A stretch of DNA of 36,875 nt from a virus, in IMG/VR virus record IMGVR_UViG_3300046536_000305, positions 1 through 36,875 of that record; one strand, given 5' to 3'. Below are positions 6,913 through 34,738 of this stretch, piece by piece; the first letter of the stretch is position 1, and every line of letters begins with the position of its first letter. Below the pieces are notes generated by a model. That model had not been told where the DNA came from, did no database searches, and was given only the letters and a program-made list of their open reading frames with translations. The position numbers were made by a program, and so were the translations under genes.

Positions 6913-7418
6913 GCATCGCGTTCAAAGCAATGCAGTTTGCGCGAGAGGCGCATAAGAATCAGGTCCGAAAGTACACCGGCAATCCGTATGTCGATCATTT
7001 AGCGGAGGTCGCGGGGATTGTGGCCGCGCTGGGTTGGTTCGACGGCAATACACATCCGACTACGGTAACAGCGGTCGCATGGCTGCACGACTGTGTGGAA
7101 GATCAAGGGGTCTTGGCCGAGACGCTGCGCGAGGAGTTTGGAGAAATCGTCGCTGCGGGCGTTCTGTTGCTATCCGACTTGGAGGCCGGCAATCGAGCTG
7201 AACGCAAAGCCGCGTCTCGCGCTCGATTAGCCGAAGCGCCGGGCTGGGTCCAAACCATCAAGTGCGCCGACCTGATTAGCAACACGTCGAGCATCGTCAA
7301 GCACGATCCGAAGTTCGCAGTGACGTACCTGGAAGAAAAGCGGCTGCTGCTGGATGTGCTGACGAAGGCCGATTCCCGGCTGGTTGAGATTGCGCGGAAA
7401 CAGGCGGAGGGAGCATGA
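6909..7418 (+). CDS. HD-domain hydrolase resembling Mesh1/SpoT-type (p)ppGpp hydrolases
   Basis: This 169-residue single-domain protein matches the length of small alarmone hydrolases. Metal-binding and catalytic residues are in the expected order: H30 in NPYVDHLAEVA, the HD doublet H60-D61 in AWLHDCVED, E64-D65 of the ED pair, and D121 and N125 in KCADLISN. This corresponds to the H, HD, ED, D...N pattern of Mesh1 and the SpoT N-terminal hydrolase (AREAH..., G.PY..H, LHD.VED, K.AD...N). Members remove the 3'-pyrophosphate of (p)ppGpp, and Mesh1 also acts on NADPH. A phage enzyme could lower the stringent-response alarmone during infection; this role is inferred. It is translationally coupled to genes on both sides by ATGA overlaps, directly upstream of xis-int. 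A generic HD nucleotidase activity remains possible. Confidence 0.8.
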   Translation: MSIAFKAMQFAREAHKNQVRKYTGNPYVDHLAEVAGIVAALGWFDGNTHPTTVTAVAWLHDCVEDQGVLAETLREEFGEIVAAGVLLLSDLEAGNRAERKAASRARLAEAPGWVQTIKCADLISNTSSIVKHDPKFAVTYLEEKRLLLDVLTKADSRLVEIARKQAEGA

Positions 7419-7705
7419 GCCGATTTGTTACTATCAAGAAATTCTGCGAACTGACCGGGATGACCGCAGCCGCCGTGTACACGAGAAAGTGTAAGGGAAC
7501 CTGGCTGGAGGGGACCATCTGGCGTTACGCACCGGGATCAAAGACGATCCTGATGGACATCGAGGCTTACGAAAAATGGGTAGAAAAGGGACCGGAGTCT
7601 CCATCATCTCGGACTCCAGCTACGAAATCACCTTCGCGTACAAGGGCGTCCGATGCCGCGAGCGCGTCAAGGCAAAGCCCAGTCCTGCCAACACTCGCGA
7701 ACTGA
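7415..7705 (+). CDS. Excisionase-like protein (Xis) overlapping integrase
   Basis: The first ~60 residues (MSRFVTIKKFCELTGMTAAAVYTRK, then GTWLEGTIWRYAPGSKTI, then MDIEAYEKWVE) are a winged-helix/MerR-like excisionase domain of the type encoded just before phage integrases. It would bind attachment-site DNA and direct the integrase toward excision. The start overlaps the HD-hydrolase stop as ATGA. The reading frame continues for 130 bases past the integrase ATG, giving a Ser/Pro/Thr/Ala-rich tail (residues ~59-96) that is probably a low-complexity by-product of dual coding, as typical family members end near the WVE motif. Confidence 0.82.
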   Translation: MSRFVTIKKFCELTGMTAAAVYTRKCKGTWLEGTIWRYAPGSKTILMDIEAYEKWVEKGPESPSSRTPATKSPSRTRASDAASASRQSPVLPTLAN

Positions 7706-8805
7706 TCAAGTTTCGCCAGCGCATCCTGTTCTCCATCGAGGACGGCAGTTTCGATTATGCGCAGTCCTTCCCCAACTCGAAAAACATCACCCTGTTTGCC
7801 ATAAAAGGCGGCTCACTCACGGTAACGTCATACCTTGAGGAGTGGCTTGAAGTTGAGAAGACGCAGATCGCGGCGAGCACGGCCCGCGATTATCACGGGA
7901 TAATCTTCAATATCATCATTCCAAAATTCGGGGCTTTCCCGCTGTCGGATATCACCCGAGCTTCTGTGAAGTCGTGGCTTGCGAAGATCGACGAAGGCCG
8001 CGAGAAGAAAATCACCAACAAGCGTCTTGCGAACATTCAGAGTTGCTTGCGCTCAGCGCTTCAGGATGCCGTCGACGATGATCTGCTCGAATCGAATCCT
8101 CTCGCCGGCTTCACATTTGCGCGCAATGAACCGCCTCGAGATGCCGACCATGCCGACCCCCTGGACGCTGCCGAACAGGCCGCCATCATTGCCGCTGCAC
8201 GCGATCCGCAGATAGCCAACCTGTGGCAGTTCATGATGTGGACCGGCGTACGCACGAGCGAGGTCATTGCCCTGCAATGGTCCGATGTGGATTGGATCCG
8301 CGGAACAGTTCAGGTCCGCAAGGCAATTACGCGGGCCGCCAAGGGTGTGGTCGAGGACACTAAGACGGTGGCGGGTCGACGCGACGTGAAGTTGCTGGCG
8401 CCTGCAATGGCGGCTCTGTTGGCGCAGAAGGAGCATACGTTCCTTGCCGGCGAAGCGATCTTCAATCGACCAGATTGGCGGGGGAAGCCAGGCGGCCTAT
8501 GGAGGCATGATCACCAGATATGGGACGCGTGGAAGACGACGTTGAAGCATGCGAAGGTACGGTACCGGAATCCCTATCAGACGAGGCATACATACGCGTC
8601 GATGATGCTCTCTGCGGGGGAGCGTGAGATATGGGTGGCGAACCAGATGGGGCACTCGGATACGACATCTATCCGGCGCAACTACGGACGCTGGATTCCC
8701 AATTCAGACCCGCAGGCAGGGAGCCGCGCCGTCGAATTGTTCGCGCCAGAAAATGCTGGCAAAAAAGATGGCAAATCGAACCGTAAACAGGCAAAAACAG
8801 GCTAG
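7576..8805 (+). CDS. int: Phage tyrosine site-specific integrase
   Basis: A 409-residue protein. Residues ~1-60 form an arm-type DNA-binding domain (MGRKGTGVSIISDSSYEITFAYKGVRCRE) and ~80-180 a core-binding SAM-like domain. The catalytic domain begins at ~195: R226 in TGVRTSEVIAL, K263 in a TKT beta-hairpin, the box II sequence PYQTRHTYAS with R337 (the usual first His is Tyr, common in this subfamily), H360 in MGH, and nucleophile Y370 in RRNYGRW. It recombines attP with a tRNA-gene attB. The gene is last in the early operon, starts inside xis, and its C-terminal codons overlap the left arm-type repeats of attP. Confidence 0.95.
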   Translation: MGRKGTGVSIISDSSYEITFAYKGVRCRERVKAKPSPANTRELIKFRQRILFSIEDGSFDYAQSFPNSKNITLFAIKGGSLTVTSYLEEWLEVEKTQIAASTARDYHGIIFNIIIPKFGAFPLSDITRASVKSWLAKIDEGREKKITNKRLANIQSCLRSALQDAVDDDLLESNPLAGFTFARNEPPRDADHADPLDAAEQAAIIAAARDPQIANLWQFMMWTGVRTSEVIALQWSDVDWIRGTVQVRKAITRAAKGVVEDTKTVAGRRDVKLLAPAMAALLAQKEHTFLAGEAIFNRPDWRGKPGGLWRHDHQIWDAWKTTLKHAKVRYRNPYQTRHTYASMMLSAGEREIWVANQMGHSDTTSIRRNYGRWIPNSDPQAGSRAVELFAPENAGKKDGKSNRKQAKTG

Positions 8806-8937
8806 ATTTTCACCAGCTTTAGAATCAAGGCCATTGATTTTAAAGGATTTTTTGGTGCCCAGGGCGGGATTTGAACCCGCACCGTTTCTTATAGATAGGG
8901 GCTCCGTGGGTCAATGCTGGCAAAAAGCTGGCAAATC
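8754..8937. other. attP: Phage attachment site attP with paired integrase arm-type repeats
   Basis: On the left, GCTGGCAAAA at 8755-8764 and GATGGCAAAT at 8767-8776 form a direct pair, with a third related copy CAGGCAAAAA at 8788. On the right, GCTGGCAAAA at 8916-8925 and GCTGGCAAAT at 8927-8936 form a second pair in the same orientation with nearly the same spacing (12 and 11 bases). Between them, at 8853-8888, lies a tRNA 3' end. A core flanked by arm repeats on both sides is the architecture of an intact attP. The left pair lies in the last codons of int and the right pair ends in the stop codon of the SRAP gene. Confidence 0.82.
8853..8888 (-). other. tRNA 3'-end fragment (attP core region)
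   Basis: Read on the minus strand, the segment gives a T stem GCGGG, T loop TTCAAAT, stem CCCGC, then acceptor strand CCTGGGC, discriminator A and encoded CCA. The partner acceptor strand GCCCAGG is absent from the next ~90 bases at higher coordinates, so this is not a complete tRNA gene. It is the duplicated 3' end that phages carry to restore the target tRNA after integration. A GCCCAGG acceptor would suit a leucine-type tRNA, but the anticodon is not present here, so the identity is a guess. Confidence 0.88.
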
Positions 8938-9613
8938 ACGGTCCCAGTAGATCGCCACCATTTGGCGCTGCCGGCGCTACTTTGGGTGGCTTTGGAGCGG
9001 GCTCAGCCGCCATCTCGTCAGCCGGAAACAGATTCAGAAACGACCGCGCCTCGTCGGTTGATCGAGCGCCCAGCCAGTCGCCATATTCCTCAGGCCGCAG
9101 GATGACGACCGATCGTTTCTCGGCCCCGGGACGATGGAATCGCCTCATCATCGGATGCTCGTCGGCGTTGAGCGTCAGCATCGTGAACGACAACGCGACG
9201 CCTTCTGGTTCTTCCCACGCTCGCCATAGACCGGCAATCGCGAACGGCTTGCGGTCAGGCATTCCAATCTGCCATCTCACGGCTTTACCCGTCTCCCAGT
9301 TCGGCTCATAGAAGCTCGCGCAGGGTATCAGGCACAGTTGCAACTTCTTCCATGCACCACTGAAACTGCGCTTCTCCCCGATCGTTTCTGCGCGCGCATT
9401 CATCGTGTCGAACGCCTTCACGCCTGGCGGGATGTGCTTGCGCGGCACCATGGCGAACGTCGCCGGATCCGTGCTGCGTTCGCCGGCACTCATGCGAAGG
9501 ATCGGCGCCACATAGTCCTTGTAGGTCTCAGGCGGATAGTCGAACCGCGGCACGGGGAAATCGGTGAACGCCTCGAACAGATCGGCCTGAAGTGGCCGGG
9601 AGTTGGTGCACAT
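8936..9613 (-). CDS. SRAP (SOS-response-associated peptidase, YedK/HMCES-like) abasic-site protein
   Basis: A 225-residue protein with the SRAP catalytic set: Cys2 directly after the initiator Met, N72 and E76 in MNARAET, E103 in ASFYEPNW, and H153 in NADEHPMM. In YedK/HMCES the exposed Cys2 forms a thiazolidine cross-link with abasic sites in single-stranded DNA, shielding replication forks. The start ATG is preceded by GGAGG. The gene converges with int and its stop codon lies in the right attP arm. It diverges from 9701 across a LexA box. The C-terminal ~20 residues are Pro/Ala-rich (PAPKPPKVAPAAP). It likely protects phage DNA during SOS-triggered induction. Confidence 0.93.
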   Translation of the reverse strand: MCTNSRPLQADLFEAFTDFPVPRFDYPPETYKDYVAPILRMSAGERSTDPATFAMVPRKHIPPGVKAFDTMNARAETIGEKRSFSGAWKKLQLCLIPCASFYEPNWETGKAVRWQIGMPDRKPFAIAGLWRAWEEPEGVALSFTMLTLNADEHPMMRRFHRPGAEKRSVVILRPEEYGDWLGARSTDEARSFLNLFPADEMAAEPAPKPPKVAPAAPNGGDLLGP

Positions 9614-10598: not shown

Positions 10599-10946
10599 AT
10601 GCAGGACAAGGAATTACTGAAACTGGCGGCGAAGGCTGCGGGATATGGCGACCTTCGGTTTCTTGACGACAGTTCGATCATTGTCAATGCGCGGCGATGG
10701 AACCCACTCGCCAACGATGGCGACGCGTTTCGGCTGGCCGTGGAACTGGATATCAGCGTACGCCAGCAATTTGCGATGGTGACCGCCGAGTATCCTTGGG
10801 TCGATGAAGACTTCAACACCCGGAAGGTACTGTGCGAGGGCGTGGGTGCGCTCAACGACTATTGCGCCGCCACCCGTCGAGCTATCGTAAGGGCGGCCGC
10901 CGAGATTGGGAATAGGGTAGACGCGCCGCTAGTGCGGGCTGATTGA
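10599..10946 (+). CDS. Phage ABA-sandwich (DUF2591-like) protein
   Basis: The ATG at 10599 is preceded by GGGGAGGGG; a GTG one codon earlier is in frame. The central part (NARRWNPLANDGDAFRLAVELDISV) matches the W-NPL-DGDAFRLAV-L signature of phage ABA-sandwich proteins, which are small early or accessory proteins of unknown biochemical role. The C-terminal part is helical (CEGVGALNDYCAATRRAIVRAAAEIG). Recognition rests on that signature, and the function is unknown. Confidence 0.75.
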   Translation: MQDKELLKLAAKAAGYGDLRFLDDSSIIVNARRWNPLANDGDAFRLAVELDISVRQQFAMVTAEYPWVDEDFNTRKVLCEGVGALNDYCAATRRAIVRAAAEIGNRVDAPLVRAD

Positions 10947-10972
10947 TGTGCGCTTAGGCGCGGGAGGCGGGG

Positions 10973-11221
10973 ATGACGCTAATTCTGGAACGAGACCACT
11001 TCGCGGCTATTCAGGCGCGTGTTCGAGAAGAGTTTCCTGAGTTCGATGAGGGTGCAGTTCGCCATGCATCGAACAAAATCACGAACGAGATTCGGCGTGG
11101 CCATTTCGACGTCTACAACATTGATGTGAGTCACGGTCCGATGGATGACAACGGGTATTACGTCCACTTTGACGTTGAAGCGAGCGGGAAGGCGGTTTAT
11201 GTGCGGGTAACGGTGGATTGA
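10973..11221 (+). CDS. Small hypothetical protein (82 aa)
   Basis: The ATG at 10973 follows a GGAGGCGGGG purine stretch. The N-terminal half is helical (LERDHFAAIQARVREEFPEFDEGAVRHASNK is spread over residues 5-35) and the C-terminal half beta-prone (YVHFDVEAS, AVYVRVTVD). No family is recognised. It is the last plus-strand gene before the convergent late region. Confidence 0.62.
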   Translation: MTLILERDHFAAIQARVREEFPEFDEGAVRHASNKITNEIRRGHFDVYNIDVSHGPMDDNGYYVHFDVEASGKAVYVRVTVD

Positions 11222-12630: not shown

Positions 12631-12833
12631 GCTGTGGGAGCAGCCTTCGCCGCAGAGCGGGCCGCGACTGTCTGGCTGACCCAGTGCGCGCCGGCCACAA
12701 TCAGCACGACGACAGCGCTTTGCACATCGGCCGGAAGAGTCGCGTGAAACATGCTCGCGACATACGAAACTACGGGTGCGACTACGGCACCGGCGCCGAC
12801 TGCGGTTGCGGTGTTGATGGGGGTGCTATTCAT
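12627..12833 (-). CDS. Small membrane protein, holin-like (68 aa)
   Basis: The 68-residue protein has two hydrophobic stretches, about residues 9-29 (TAVGAGAVVAPVVSYVASMF) and 40-54 (AVVVLIVAGAHWVSQ), and a short basic tail. Size and topology fit a class II holin or antiholin, but a better placed holin candidate sits beside the endolysin at 16110-16328, so this could be an antiholin or an unrelated membrane protein. It overlaps both neighbours by four bases. Confidence 0.6.
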   Translation of the reverse strand: MNSTPINTATAVGAGAVVAPVVSYVASMFHATLPADVQSAVVVLIVAGAHWVSQTVAARSAAKAAPTA

Positions 12834-13330
12834 AGATGCTCCGGATCGTGATGGATGACTTCAGTCGGGGAAAATTGATACCCCTCGACGGCGTACTTGG
12901 TGAACAGCCAAACGGGGAAGGGCAACCTGTGAATCCCCTGGTCCTTTCCGATATGCGGGCCAAGGCCGAGCAACATGCCGTTGACGGTCATGTCGTCGAC
13001 GAACTTGTATGGGTCATTGACCGGATCAAAATTGGCCCAATCGAAAGCCTGAGCGTGCGGCCCCCATAGACCTTTCTTGCAATCAGCCGCGAAGCGCGGC
13101 CAATCCCACGCCGTGGCAAAGCAACGCTCTACAGGGAAGTGATGTGCCTGCAGTGGTGCGCCGAGTTCTTCGGCAGTCATGTTGGTGACGAAGCACCGGC
13201 CGCCTTCACGCTCGATCAGCAATTTCTTTGAGCGTTCGAAGAGGGCCGTCGTCTTACGCTCTTCGTGACCGGGGACGAAATAGTCAGCGGTGAGCGTGTC
13301 TTTGAGTTCGTGGACGTTTTCTACGGGCAT
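12830..13330 (-). CDS. Phage protein with HNH-like motif (166 aa)
   Basis: The centre reads REGGRCFVTNMTAEELGAPLQAHHFPVERC: a Cys/Thr-N element followed by a His pair, recalling the front half of an HNH nuclease (R-x-C-x-x-T ... H-H). The third HNH residue is not obvious in what follows (DCKKGLWGPHAQAFDWANFDPVNDP). It could be a degenerate or divergent HNH protein. The ATG lies immediately after the T-run of a terminator-like hairpin and no ribosome-binding site is visible; no alternative start exists before residue 51. It begins the lipoprotein/membrane gene group. Confidence 0.6.
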   Translation of the reverse strand: MPVENVHELKDTLTADYFVPGHEERKTTALFERSKKLLIEREGGRCFVTNMTAEELGAPLQAHHFPVERCFATAWDWPRFAADCKKGLWGPHAQAFDWANFDPVNDPYKFVDDMTVNGMLLGLGPHIGKDQGIHRLPFPVWLFTKYAVEGYQFSPTEVIHHDPEHL

Positions 13331-15148: not shown

Positions 15149-15568
15149 TCAGTTGCCGTTGGTCAGCGTGAAGCTGGAGATCGAAACTGTTTGGCCGGTA
15201 GCGATCGACGCTGAGCCGGTGAAATTCAGGTCGGCCCCCGATGTGCCAGCAGTGCCATCGATAACCGCAGTGCCGCCCGAAGTGGTGATGCGGAACCACG
15301 TCGCGACAGTGCCCGTGGATGCACCGGCCGAACCAACGCCGCTAGTGATTGCGTTCAAGGTGAGAATGCCGCCCGATGCAGCAGGCGCGAACGTCGCGTT
15401 GCCGGTGATACCAGTGGTCAGGGCTGTCTGCGATGTGATGGCAGTATCTGGCGATGCAGGCTGAGTGCCGTTATAGAAAGTGATGATGCAGGAAGCGCCC
15501 ACTGCTGATGTGATGGCGTTCTCCATCGCGTTCTTCAGAGTGGTGCTGAACTTCAGATTCGTTGCCAT
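15149..15568 (-). CDS. Small phage structural protein (139 aa, Ser/Thr/Gly-rich)
   Basis: MATNLKFSTTLKNAMENAIT begins with an amphipathic helix, followed by a beta-rich Ala/Gly/Thr body (CIITFYNGTQPASPDT, TVATWFRITTSGGTAVID, VSISSFTLTNGN). Such proteins occur beside fibre genes in phages of this host group and are usually annotated as hypothetical structural proteins. The ATG has AAGGAA eight bases upstream, and an intrinsic terminator lies immediately before that. Confidence 0.72.
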   Translation of the reverse strand: MATNLKFSTTLKNAMENAITSAVGASCIITFYNGTQPASPDTAITSQTALTTGITGNATFAPAASGGILTLNAITSGVGSAGASTGTVATWFRITTSGGTAVIDGTAGTSGADLNFTGSASIATGQTVSISSFTLTNGN

Positions 15569-26592: not shown

Positions 26593-27725
26593 GCGGCAAG
26601 GTTGCTGACTTGAAGGTCGGGGTTTTGGTTTTTCGCGCGCACATGCATCGAATAGCCTGCATCCAGGCTGAATTCGCGCGTGACCGAATCAACGTAGAAC
26701 GTCTGGTTGAAACTGCCGGGGAAACCTTCCGTCTGGATCATGACGCGCGCTGTCAGCAGGTCGTCTGCCGGGCCGTCATAGGCGAAATTCACAGCGTGCC
26801 GGATGATCTGGTTGTACAGAGCCTGCGCCCGGGCGACCGCCTGTTGCTGAGTCAATCCGGGGATATTGAATTCGTACGTCTGCGTATTGCCGAAGGGACT
26901 TGCCTTGCCAGCCTGAATCGCCTTTGGGCGGCTAGGGTAGTAGCCGTCGAACCCTTTCTTTTGCTTGTTGTTCCAGCTATGAACAACCACAGTGATGCCC
27001 TTGGCGACGGTCAGGCTGCGGTGAAAACTGGCGCGACCGCCGTTCATGGTCGAATAGCCAGCGGTGTCGCTAGGTGCCTGCCATCTGACGAGATAGGGTG
27101 TATCTGGCGTCCTCGGATCGGGTCCGAAGTAGAGCGTGTGCCCCTTGGCATACACGACGAAACCTTCTTCGGCTGCGAGCCATGCCAGCAAATCCCACTC
27201 GCTGCGTTCAGCGTTGATGCGAACGTGGTCGATCTGGTAGTACTTGCCGATGATCTCTGTCGTTGCCGTGACCTGCGGCGTCAGACCGTGCTTGTTGGCT
27301 AACTGTGTAGCCACCCCGGAAGCCGTCAGATTGTTCCACTGCTCCGTCAACTTCGTGTCGATCATCGCCGCAGTCAGATCTCGCCCGGTTAGCGTGATCT
27401 TCGTGCCGCATGGATCGAAATCGATATCATCGACGCGGCCATAGATTAGGCTCGACAGGTCCGCCGGTGAATAATTGGTCGGGTCGTCAGGAAAGCCTGC
27501 GAAGATCTCGACAAACGCTTCGGTGACAGTCGAAAACCAATCAACGTTGAACGCGGCCGGCAGAAGCGATGTCGCGAACACGACACGAAACGTGTCGGCC
27601 GAGTAAAACGAATTGCTGTCCACCGAAAAATCAATCATCCCCGGGACGATCGTGTCATTAATCTTGACGAGCGCGCGAGGCTGCCGCGCAACAGACTGCG
27701 CGGGCGCTTGATTGAGATAGGCCAT
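26589..27725 (-). CDS. Baseplate hub protein (Mu gp44 / late control D-like)
   Basis: A 378-residue protein of the gpD/gp44 hub family: an N-terminal barrel (RALVKINDTIVPGMIDFSVD), IYGRVDDIDFDPCGTKITLT, ATQLANKHGLTPQV, then the conserved SEWDLLAWLAAEEGFVVYAK and HTLYFGP, followed by a second barrel with TVVVHSWNNKQKKGFDGYYP. It forms the central hub above the spike, whose gene follows. A C-terminal beta domain ends LDAGYSMHVRAKNQN. Confidence 0.87.
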   Translation of the reverse strand: MAYLNQAPAQSVARQPRALVKINDTIVPGMIDFSVDSNSFYSADTFRVVFATSLLPAAFNVDWFSTVTEAFVEIFAGFPDDPTNYSPADLSSLIYGRVDDIDFDPCGTKITLTGRDLTAAMIDTKLTEQWNNLTASGVATQLANKHGLTPQVTATTEIIGKYYQIDHVRINAERSEWDLLAWLAAEEGFVVYAKGHTLYFGPDPRTPDTPYLVRWQAPSDTAGYSTMNGGRASFHRSLTVAKGITVVVHSWNNKQKKGFDGYYPSRPKAIQAGKASPFGNTQTYEFNIPGLTQQQAVARAQALYNQIIRHAVNFAYDGPADDLLTARVMIQTEGFPGSFNQTFYVDSVTREFSLDAGYSMHVRAKNQNPDLQVSNLAA

Positions 27726-34021: not shown

Positions 34022-34738
34022 CTACAGCAGGAATCCCAGAGATTGCATGTAATCAATAGGGTCTTTCGCGTGCTTCTTGAGATTGCACGGCGGGCACAGC
34101 AACTGCAAATTCGATGGGTCGTTGCTGCCGCCCAAGGAAAGAGGCGTTCGATGATCAATGTGAAAATCGCGCAACTTGTCTCGGCAGCATGCGCAGCGAT
34201 CCCGCTGCAGCGACCTCAGGCGGTCGATATCTTGCGGAGTGAATTTGCCTTCCGCTGAGCGCTTTCTCGCCTTGTAAGCACGCTTGAGTATTGCAAGACG
34301 ACCTTTGTTCGCTGCGCGCCACTTCATGCTTATATCGCGCACCCTCTCTTTGTTGGCCTCGCGATAGGCTTTCATTGAAGCTAGGCGGGCAGGTCGGTGT
34401 CTCTCGTAGTTGGCCAGCGACCAGGCGCGCGCCTTATCCTTGTTTTTCGCTCGGTACTTGTCGAATGCTGCCTTCGCGGCTTCAGGATGCCTTTCGGCGT
34501 ATCGATCCTTTATTGCCTTAACCTTGTCCGGGTTGTTGGCTCGCCAGATTTTCTTCTGTTCGGCTACGCGGTCTGTGTTCTTGGCGTGCCACGCAGCAGA
34601 GTCAATGCTCTTGCAGGCTCGACACCACGGATTGCGACCGTCCTTCCTGCGCTTTTGGAAGCCGAAGTTATCGGTCGTCTTCGTCTCGCGACACTTCGAG
34701 CAGCGTTTATGCGTGGTGCTAGAATGGGCGTCAGCCAT
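34022..34738 (-). CDS. HNH homing endonuclease
   Basis: A 238-residue protein. At the N-terminus, CSKCRETKTTDNFGFQKRRK and WCRACK form a zinc ribbon. The middle is a long basic helical region of repeated K-A/R-x-x-x-A-x-N-x-x segments (WRANNPDKVKAIKDRYAERH, FDKYRAKNKDKARAWSLAN, MKAYREANKERVRDISMKWR). The C-terminal nuclease is CACCRDKL, then FHIDHRTPLSLGGSNDPSNL, then QLLCPPCNLKK: a Cys-bounded HNH with H-I-D-H as first His motif and N at the central position. It is free-standing between the small tail gene and the sheath gene, a typical niche for selfish endonucleases. The start has AGGAG eight bases upstream. Confidence 0.93.
   Translation of the reverse strand: MADAHSSTTHKRCSKCRETKTTDNFGFQKRRKDGRNPWCRACKSIDSAAWHAKNTDRVAEQKKIWRANNPDKVKAIKDRYAERHPEAAKAAFDKYRAKNKDKARAWSLANYERHRPARLASMKAYREANKERVRDISMKWRAANKGRLAILKRAYKARKRSAEGKFTPQDIDRLRSLQRDRCACCRDKLRDFHIDHRTPLSLGGSNDPSNLQLLCPPCNLKKHAKDPIDYMQSLGFLL

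Follow-up and report, generated by a model that had tools for sequence, protein, structure and literature searches.

The IMG/VR virus record IMGVR_UViG_3300046536_000305, analysed here over its whole length of 36,875 bp (the window; the record is classed as linear), carries the 3' end of a tRNA gene with phage genes on both sides, and the question raised by this locus is whether it represents one end of an integrated prophage (attL or attR) or an uncut phage attachment site (attP). A preliminary description of the sequence had read it as an intact attP amid phage genes and had judged the DNA to come probably from a virion, an episomal prophage or a tandem prophage. Our analyses bear out this reading, and we hold with high confidence from sequence comparison that positions 7415–8936 constitute the xis-int-attP cassette of a contractile-tailed temperate phage and that the sequenced DNA is not a single integrated prophage. 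Both arms of the site are present in the window, and they are divided between the two prophage ends in two integrated relatives, where the int-side arm stands at a complete tRNA-Leu gene. The anatomy of the site, the division of its arms and the nature of its core have all been established by comparison.

Anatomy of the attachment site

The core of the site (8853–8882) is the 3' end of a tRNA-Leu(UAA) gene, the minus strand of which carries the T-arm, the 3' strand of the acceptor stem, the discriminator base and the CCA end. Its identity follows from an exact match of 30 nucleotides (nt) to a displaced tRNA-Leu(UAA) fragment in another viral contig, L128. The tRNA end that had been placed at 8853–8888 is thus present, but it reaches only to 8882. 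As had also been claimed, no tRNA body accompanies it: ARAGORN detects no complete tRNA in the window, 8853–8888 included, where genes of phage families lie on both sides, and Rfam gives no match at gathering scores.

Two pairs of direct repeats bracket this core, viz. GCTGGCAAAA (8755–8764) and GATGGCAAAT (8767–8776) on the left and GCTGGCAAAA (8916–8925) and GCTGGCAAAT (8927–8936) on the right. These are the pairs that the preliminary description had reported, although it had not recorded that the left pair lies inside the int coding sequence and had missed two weaker copies. Within the repeats, four arm-type sites on the plus strand can be delimited: two in the left (P) arm, GCTGGCAAA at 8755–8763 and GATGGCAAA at 8767–8775, and two in the right (P') arm, both GCTGGCAAA, at 8916–8924 and 8927–8935. 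The weaker copies, a further arm-like sequence at 8787–8795 (plus strand) and an inverted one at 8809–8817 (minus strand), each differ by 2 mismatches in the window, and at the same offsets across nine related loci they show 0–2 and 0–3 mismatches, respectively. We infer that GCTGGCAAA is the sequence bound by the integrase (Int).

The adjacent gene int (7576–8805, plus strand) encodes a tyrosine integrase of 409 amino acids (aa) with an N-terminal arm-DNA-binding domain as well as catalytic domains, as indicated by its Pfam matches (PF12167, E = 2e-17; PF00589, E = 3.4e-13; PF14659, E = 1.7e-10) and by its match to the integrase family phrog_1 (E = 4.7e-59). Residues R226, K263, R337, H360 and Y370, which we take to be the catalytic residues, are invariant in an alignment of seven sequences. 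Adjoining int on its 5' side is xis (7415–7705, plus strand), which encodes a small protein of 96 aa assigned to a known excisionase family by its PHROG match (phrog_9668, E = 1e-19); no Pfam family is matched at E 0.001, and a sub-threshold match to a "putative excisionase" has E = 0.21. This gene and the start of int have 130 nt in common, read in different frames, and xis is kept directly 5' of int in many relatives among the matches listed. In L058 and L060, DNA identity to the window is higher in the xis stretch (81–83%) than in the later part of int (64–65%).

Uncut and divided sites in related elements

An integrase-alignment scan yielded 570 loci, the best 80 of which were kept and, together with the window and L011 (a prophage of Paraburkholderia silviterrae), examined for tRNA ends after int (82 loci in all). 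Records cut at the int stop (e.g. L047–L049, L052, L053, L065 and L066) and L092, which has no stop, were unusable; many relatives at 48–52% identity have no tRNA end or another one and were not used; and, among nearer relatives, L051 and L055, where a tRNA end is missing, and L057, in which a complete tRNA-Leu lies 400 nt beyond int, stand outside the comparison that follows. The int of L003 (= record L047), an IMG/VR provirus, is identical to that of the P. silviterrae prophage.

Nine loci carry a minus-strand tRNA 3' end 48–49 nt after the int stop. Six of these, the window, L046, L056, L058, L060 and L061, have no complete tRNA (attP-type loci), and three, L011, L050 and L054, have a complete tRNA-Leu. 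Direct repeats of at least 9 nt, sought with no motif named, bracket the core in all six attP-type loci and in none of the three others. The arm motif is found at −51 and −39 of the int stop in both groups (9/9 loci, 0–2 mismatches), whereas at +110 and +121 it is present only in the attP-type loci (0–2 mismatches, a one-base shift being allowed), with 4–6 mismatches in the group with a complete tRNA. The three integrated-form relatives thus retain the left repeats and lack the right repeats at their int end, and the five other viral records repeat the window's layout of arms and core at nearly equal spacing. Between these loci the cores vary and the arms are constant; in L056, L058, L060 and L061 the core is similar to the tRNA-Leu(UAG) end found in L050, L054 and L057.

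In two of the three integrated relatives, the right repeats missing from the int end are recovered at the opposite prophage end, where they adjoin a displaced 3' fragment of tRNA-Leu. The first of these is the prophage in scaffold6 of P. silviterrae 4M-K11 (L011/L126/L127), with an integrase 81–82% identical and an excisionase 76% identical to those of the window. It shares with the window the arm motif and its spacing, a tRNA-Leu target and a homologue of the SRAP-family gene beside the attR arm; unlike the window, it is integrated at tRNA-Leu(GAG), and its core sequence differs. Its int end abuts the complete tRNA-Leu(GAG), and about 54.5 kb away lies the tRNA-Leu fragment, after which come the right arm pair and the SRAP homologue; the latter lies directly inside attR (blastn) and marks that end; the distance of right arm-type site 1 from the T-stem equals that in the window. 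The two ends have an exact block of 28 nt in common. When aligned with the window by blastn, one end covers 7421–8881 and the other 8850–8933 and 9011–9464, and the two alignments overlap at 8850–8881 only, i.e., at the core. In the second provirus (record 2728369113_000003, the name of which suggests an isolate genome), a complete tRNA-Leu(UAG) stands at the int end with the core at contig position 1612, and the fragment and right arms lie about 26 kb off, at 27503, with a shared block of 29 nt. Repeats on both sides in uncut sites and on one side at each prophage end are observed in relatives, and this division of the arms is the expected product of integrating an attP like that of the window. 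A degenerate second int 3' end with an attachment region is also seen at about 86 kb of the P. silviterrae scaffold6 (L012/L015), about 110 kb from the intact int end.

These features suggest the following mechanism. Int would contact both pairs of GCTGGCAAA arm-type sites through its N-terminal domain and the tRNA-Leu-derived core through its catalytic part. Recombination between this core and the corresponding 3' end of a tRNA-Leu gene in the host would regenerate the tRNA gene on the int side and leave a 3' fragment with the right arm at the opposite prophage end. Xis would presumably reverse the reaction, leading to excision.

The same comparison bears on whether the junction could be an assembly chimera that joined two phage ends at a repeated tRNA 3' end. 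The core is short and of a kind present in host tRNA genes, where mis-joins are possible, but the junction joins the arms and genes predicted from the prophage ends of the P. silviterrae relative, and it recurs, around other cores, in five other records. We therefore regard a chimera as very improbable.

Another attP-type relative, IMG/VR record 3300037418_000653 (L002/L046), has an integrase 86% identical to that of the window and likewise lacks a complete tRNA, but its core is a different tRNA 3' end. Its DNA can be aligned with the window over 7405–8937, from just 5' of xis as far as the right arm's outer edge; directly beyond that arm no match is found, and matches resume at 10920–10973 and 12969–13273. 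Cores matching tRNA-Leu GAG, UAG and UAA occur in this lineage. A tentative proposal, which we regard with somewhat more doubt than belief, is that the lineage resets its target by swapping only the tRNA core of about 28 bp within largely constant arms and xis-int, and that xis, int and attP travel together as one cassette between phages in which the neighbouring genes differ. In three more distant relatives (L059, L062 and L063; integrases 53% identical), of which L062 and L063 are near-identical and not independent, the tRNA 3' end is reversed relative to int, 54–83 nt after the stop, and other repeats (AATGGACGTTTTTTGG; GAAATGACA) lie on both sides of the reversed core.

The host target and the weight of the evidence

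The predicted host target of the phage is tRNA-Leu(UAA). A degenerate 28-nt pattern of the core matched 25 of 399 genomes from the order of P. silviterrae, and ARAGORN assigns 24 of these 25 loci to tRNA-Leu (CAA or TAA), whereas the tRNA at the remaining locus is given an anticodon of four bases. Two loci from this order with a complete tRNA-Leu(UAA) (L039 and L040) have the acceptor strand and T-stem of the window and another T-loop. In L128, the one viral contig matching a 28-mer of the core, the complete tRNA-Leu(UAA) at the opposite end from the fragment also differs from the window's core in the T-loop. We infer that strand exchange takes place at or near the T-loop. For mycobacteriophage Ms6, strand exchange has been suggested to lie in the T-loop (PMC1762012); if the same applies here, the T-loop of the host should match that of the window. 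A 30-mer core pattern returned no match from viral contigs in a pattern search. L128 itself is an IMG/VR contig of 9.6 kb with tRNA loci at 66–93 and 9411–9498, the complete gene lying near one end and the displaced fragment, which reaches into the anticodon arm, near the other; it has no other similarity to the window (tblastx) and is possibly a different element integrated at the same kind of tRNA.

Several observations weigh against our reading of the site or reduce the weight of a single locus. The window's T-loop and exact core occur in none of the 25 tRNA loci from the 399 genomes; 27- and 28-mers of the core are found in 0/398, 0/17 and 0/369 whole genomes; and the 30-mer pattern, which extends one base beyond the homology, has no match in genome contigs. 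The tRNA from which the L046 core derives was not identified in the examination of the 82 loci, and no site within 1 mismatch of the integration host factor (IHF) consensus occurs in 8746–8945. The repeats of the window, taken alone, are moderately unusual: a family of four 9-mers, with no motif specified, is reached by 4 of 1000 shuffles of 8750–8940 and by 4 of 367 stretches of 191 bp taken from the record at 100-bp steps, and shuffled flanks share a 9-mer of the kind that brackets the core in 40–80 of 500 trials per locus.

These statistics, together with the 50 of 500 shuffles of the window's own flanks in which a common 9-mer appears on both sides, are what could be said for a chance origin of the tRNA end and repeats, or for an unused remnant that is no attachment site. 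Against chance, GCTGGCAAA occurs four times in 8750–8940 with at most 1 mismatch, a number reached in 0 of 5000 dinucleotide shuffles, and the longest exact direct repeat, of 14 nt, is equalled in length by 0 of 2000. The int and xis frames are open, with family matches. Position, spacing, and presence or absence of the motif are consistent across relatives of attP, attL and attR type, and in two integrated prophages each end holds one of the two arms. Comparison thus decides the matter, and it is through their conservation in relatives that the repeats become convincing; chance or a remnant is, in our judgement, extremely unlikely.

State of the DNA and neighbouring genes

The core is flanked left and right by phage genes, as had been claimed: xis and int on the left, and on the right a SRAP-family gene (8936–9613, minus strand; PF02586, E = 1.9e-28), which is the first phage gene beyond attP, followed by holin and endolysin families and by tail genes that include sheath and baseplate parts (PHROG scan). 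With both arms still at the core and phage genes to its left and right, the DNA is not from a single integrated prophage; homology to prophage ends extends from the core in both directions, and neither side shows the complete tRNA or host DNA of an attL or attR. Only unintegrated phage DNA or the boundary of tandem copies is expected to show the succession of int, left arm, core, right arm and SRAP-family gene. The source would accordingly be virion, replicating or excised phage DNA or, less likely, a tandem prophage, in keeping with the preliminary description. As the layout of arms and core is shared by five other viral records, the simplest reading is that the DNA was unintegrated.

If the junction were the internal one of a tandem (double) prophage, with an intact attP between the copies, the site would still be an attP and only the state of the DNA would differ; the probability of this alternative accordingly overlaps with that of the reading given above. 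A tandem of identical copies would yield exactly the window's sequence, tRNA-Leu loci can be used repeatedly (as in the degenerate int/tRNA remnant of the P. silviterrae scaffold6), and the Islander report lists 125 "Tandems > = 2" beside 3919 islands (PMC4383910). However, two unlike elements in tandem would not be expected to present one arm motif left and right of the core, followed by the gene that marks attR in a relative, and a rare state is not the simplest reading of a layout repeated in five other viral records. We consider a tandem improbable and hold that the record most likely derives from unintegrated (or else tandem) phage DNA.

The record itself looks like part of a larger genome, because a PHROG scan of 40 proteins (a subset of the open reading frames of the window) listed none with a terminase, portal or major capsid description and because its left end probably lies inside a helicase gene. 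One structural protein in the category "head and packaging" is encoded at 15149–15568, and no exact terminal direct or inverted repeats of 10–200 bases were found in the record. Between a helicase C-terminal part (5–886) and a DNA-methylase part (1562–2488) lies an open reading frame resembling GIY-YIG/NUMOD3 homing endonucleases (883–1581). A helicase-methylase gene may thus be interrupted at 5–2488, since the two flanking parts correspond to different portions of a single PHROG helicase profile. Genes resembling HNH-type endonucleases occur at two further places, 34022–34738 and 12830–13330, and one of them adjoins the tail sheath gene.

Between int and the core, a hairpin followed by a T run (8817–8852, plus strand) abuts the core and may be a weak intrinsic terminator of int. 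The stretch 8806–8856 folds with a minimum free energy of −13.1 kcal/mol (z −2.67; 3 of 200 shuffles equally good), and a consensus terminator scan did not list the hairpin at 8817–8852. Support for it is weak in L011, L046 and L062 (z −0.90, −1.77 and −0.26, respectively). The conserved TTGATTTTAAAG left of the core may belong to this hairpin and not to an IHF site. IHF-like matches with at most 1 mismatch near the core were seen in six of the nine loci (one of them exact), the window, L011 and L056 having none; we make no claim for IHF, because 41–69 of 300 shuffles per locus also give a match within 1 mismatch.

Comparison with known systems

The named phages with the nearest integrases (JBD68, Hali, MR13, CF79a and Halomonas H4907; 43–48% identical) show no copy of the arm motif (at most 1 mismatch) between −80 and +400 relative to the int stop; MR13 has, by inspection, another tRNA-like end. 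Among described sites, that of Pseudomonas phage phiCTX, the target of which is presumably tRNA-Ser, is similar in arrangement. Its int/attP sequence (D13409) has, as in the window, a tyrosine integrase gene followed by an annotated attP core (1737–1766), which by inspection is tRNA-like with repeats on both sides; unlike the window, its integrase is only 31.6% identical and its repeats are of the GTTCCCA type (by inspection). Mycobacteriophage Ms6, which we liken to the window by description, differs in its tRNA-Ala target and mycobacterial host; a change of core redirects its integration among tRNA-Ala genes (PMC1762012). Our results thus locate, by prediction from sequence, the exact attachment site of this phage and its pair of integrase and excisionase, and they do not alter existing knowledge of phage integration. 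The site is an ordinary attP of a known kind, and an uncut attP is what is expected in a contig from unintegrated phage DNA; according to the Islander report, the attP of an island likewise carries a fragment of a tRNA gene, and integration restores the tRNA gene (PMC4383910).
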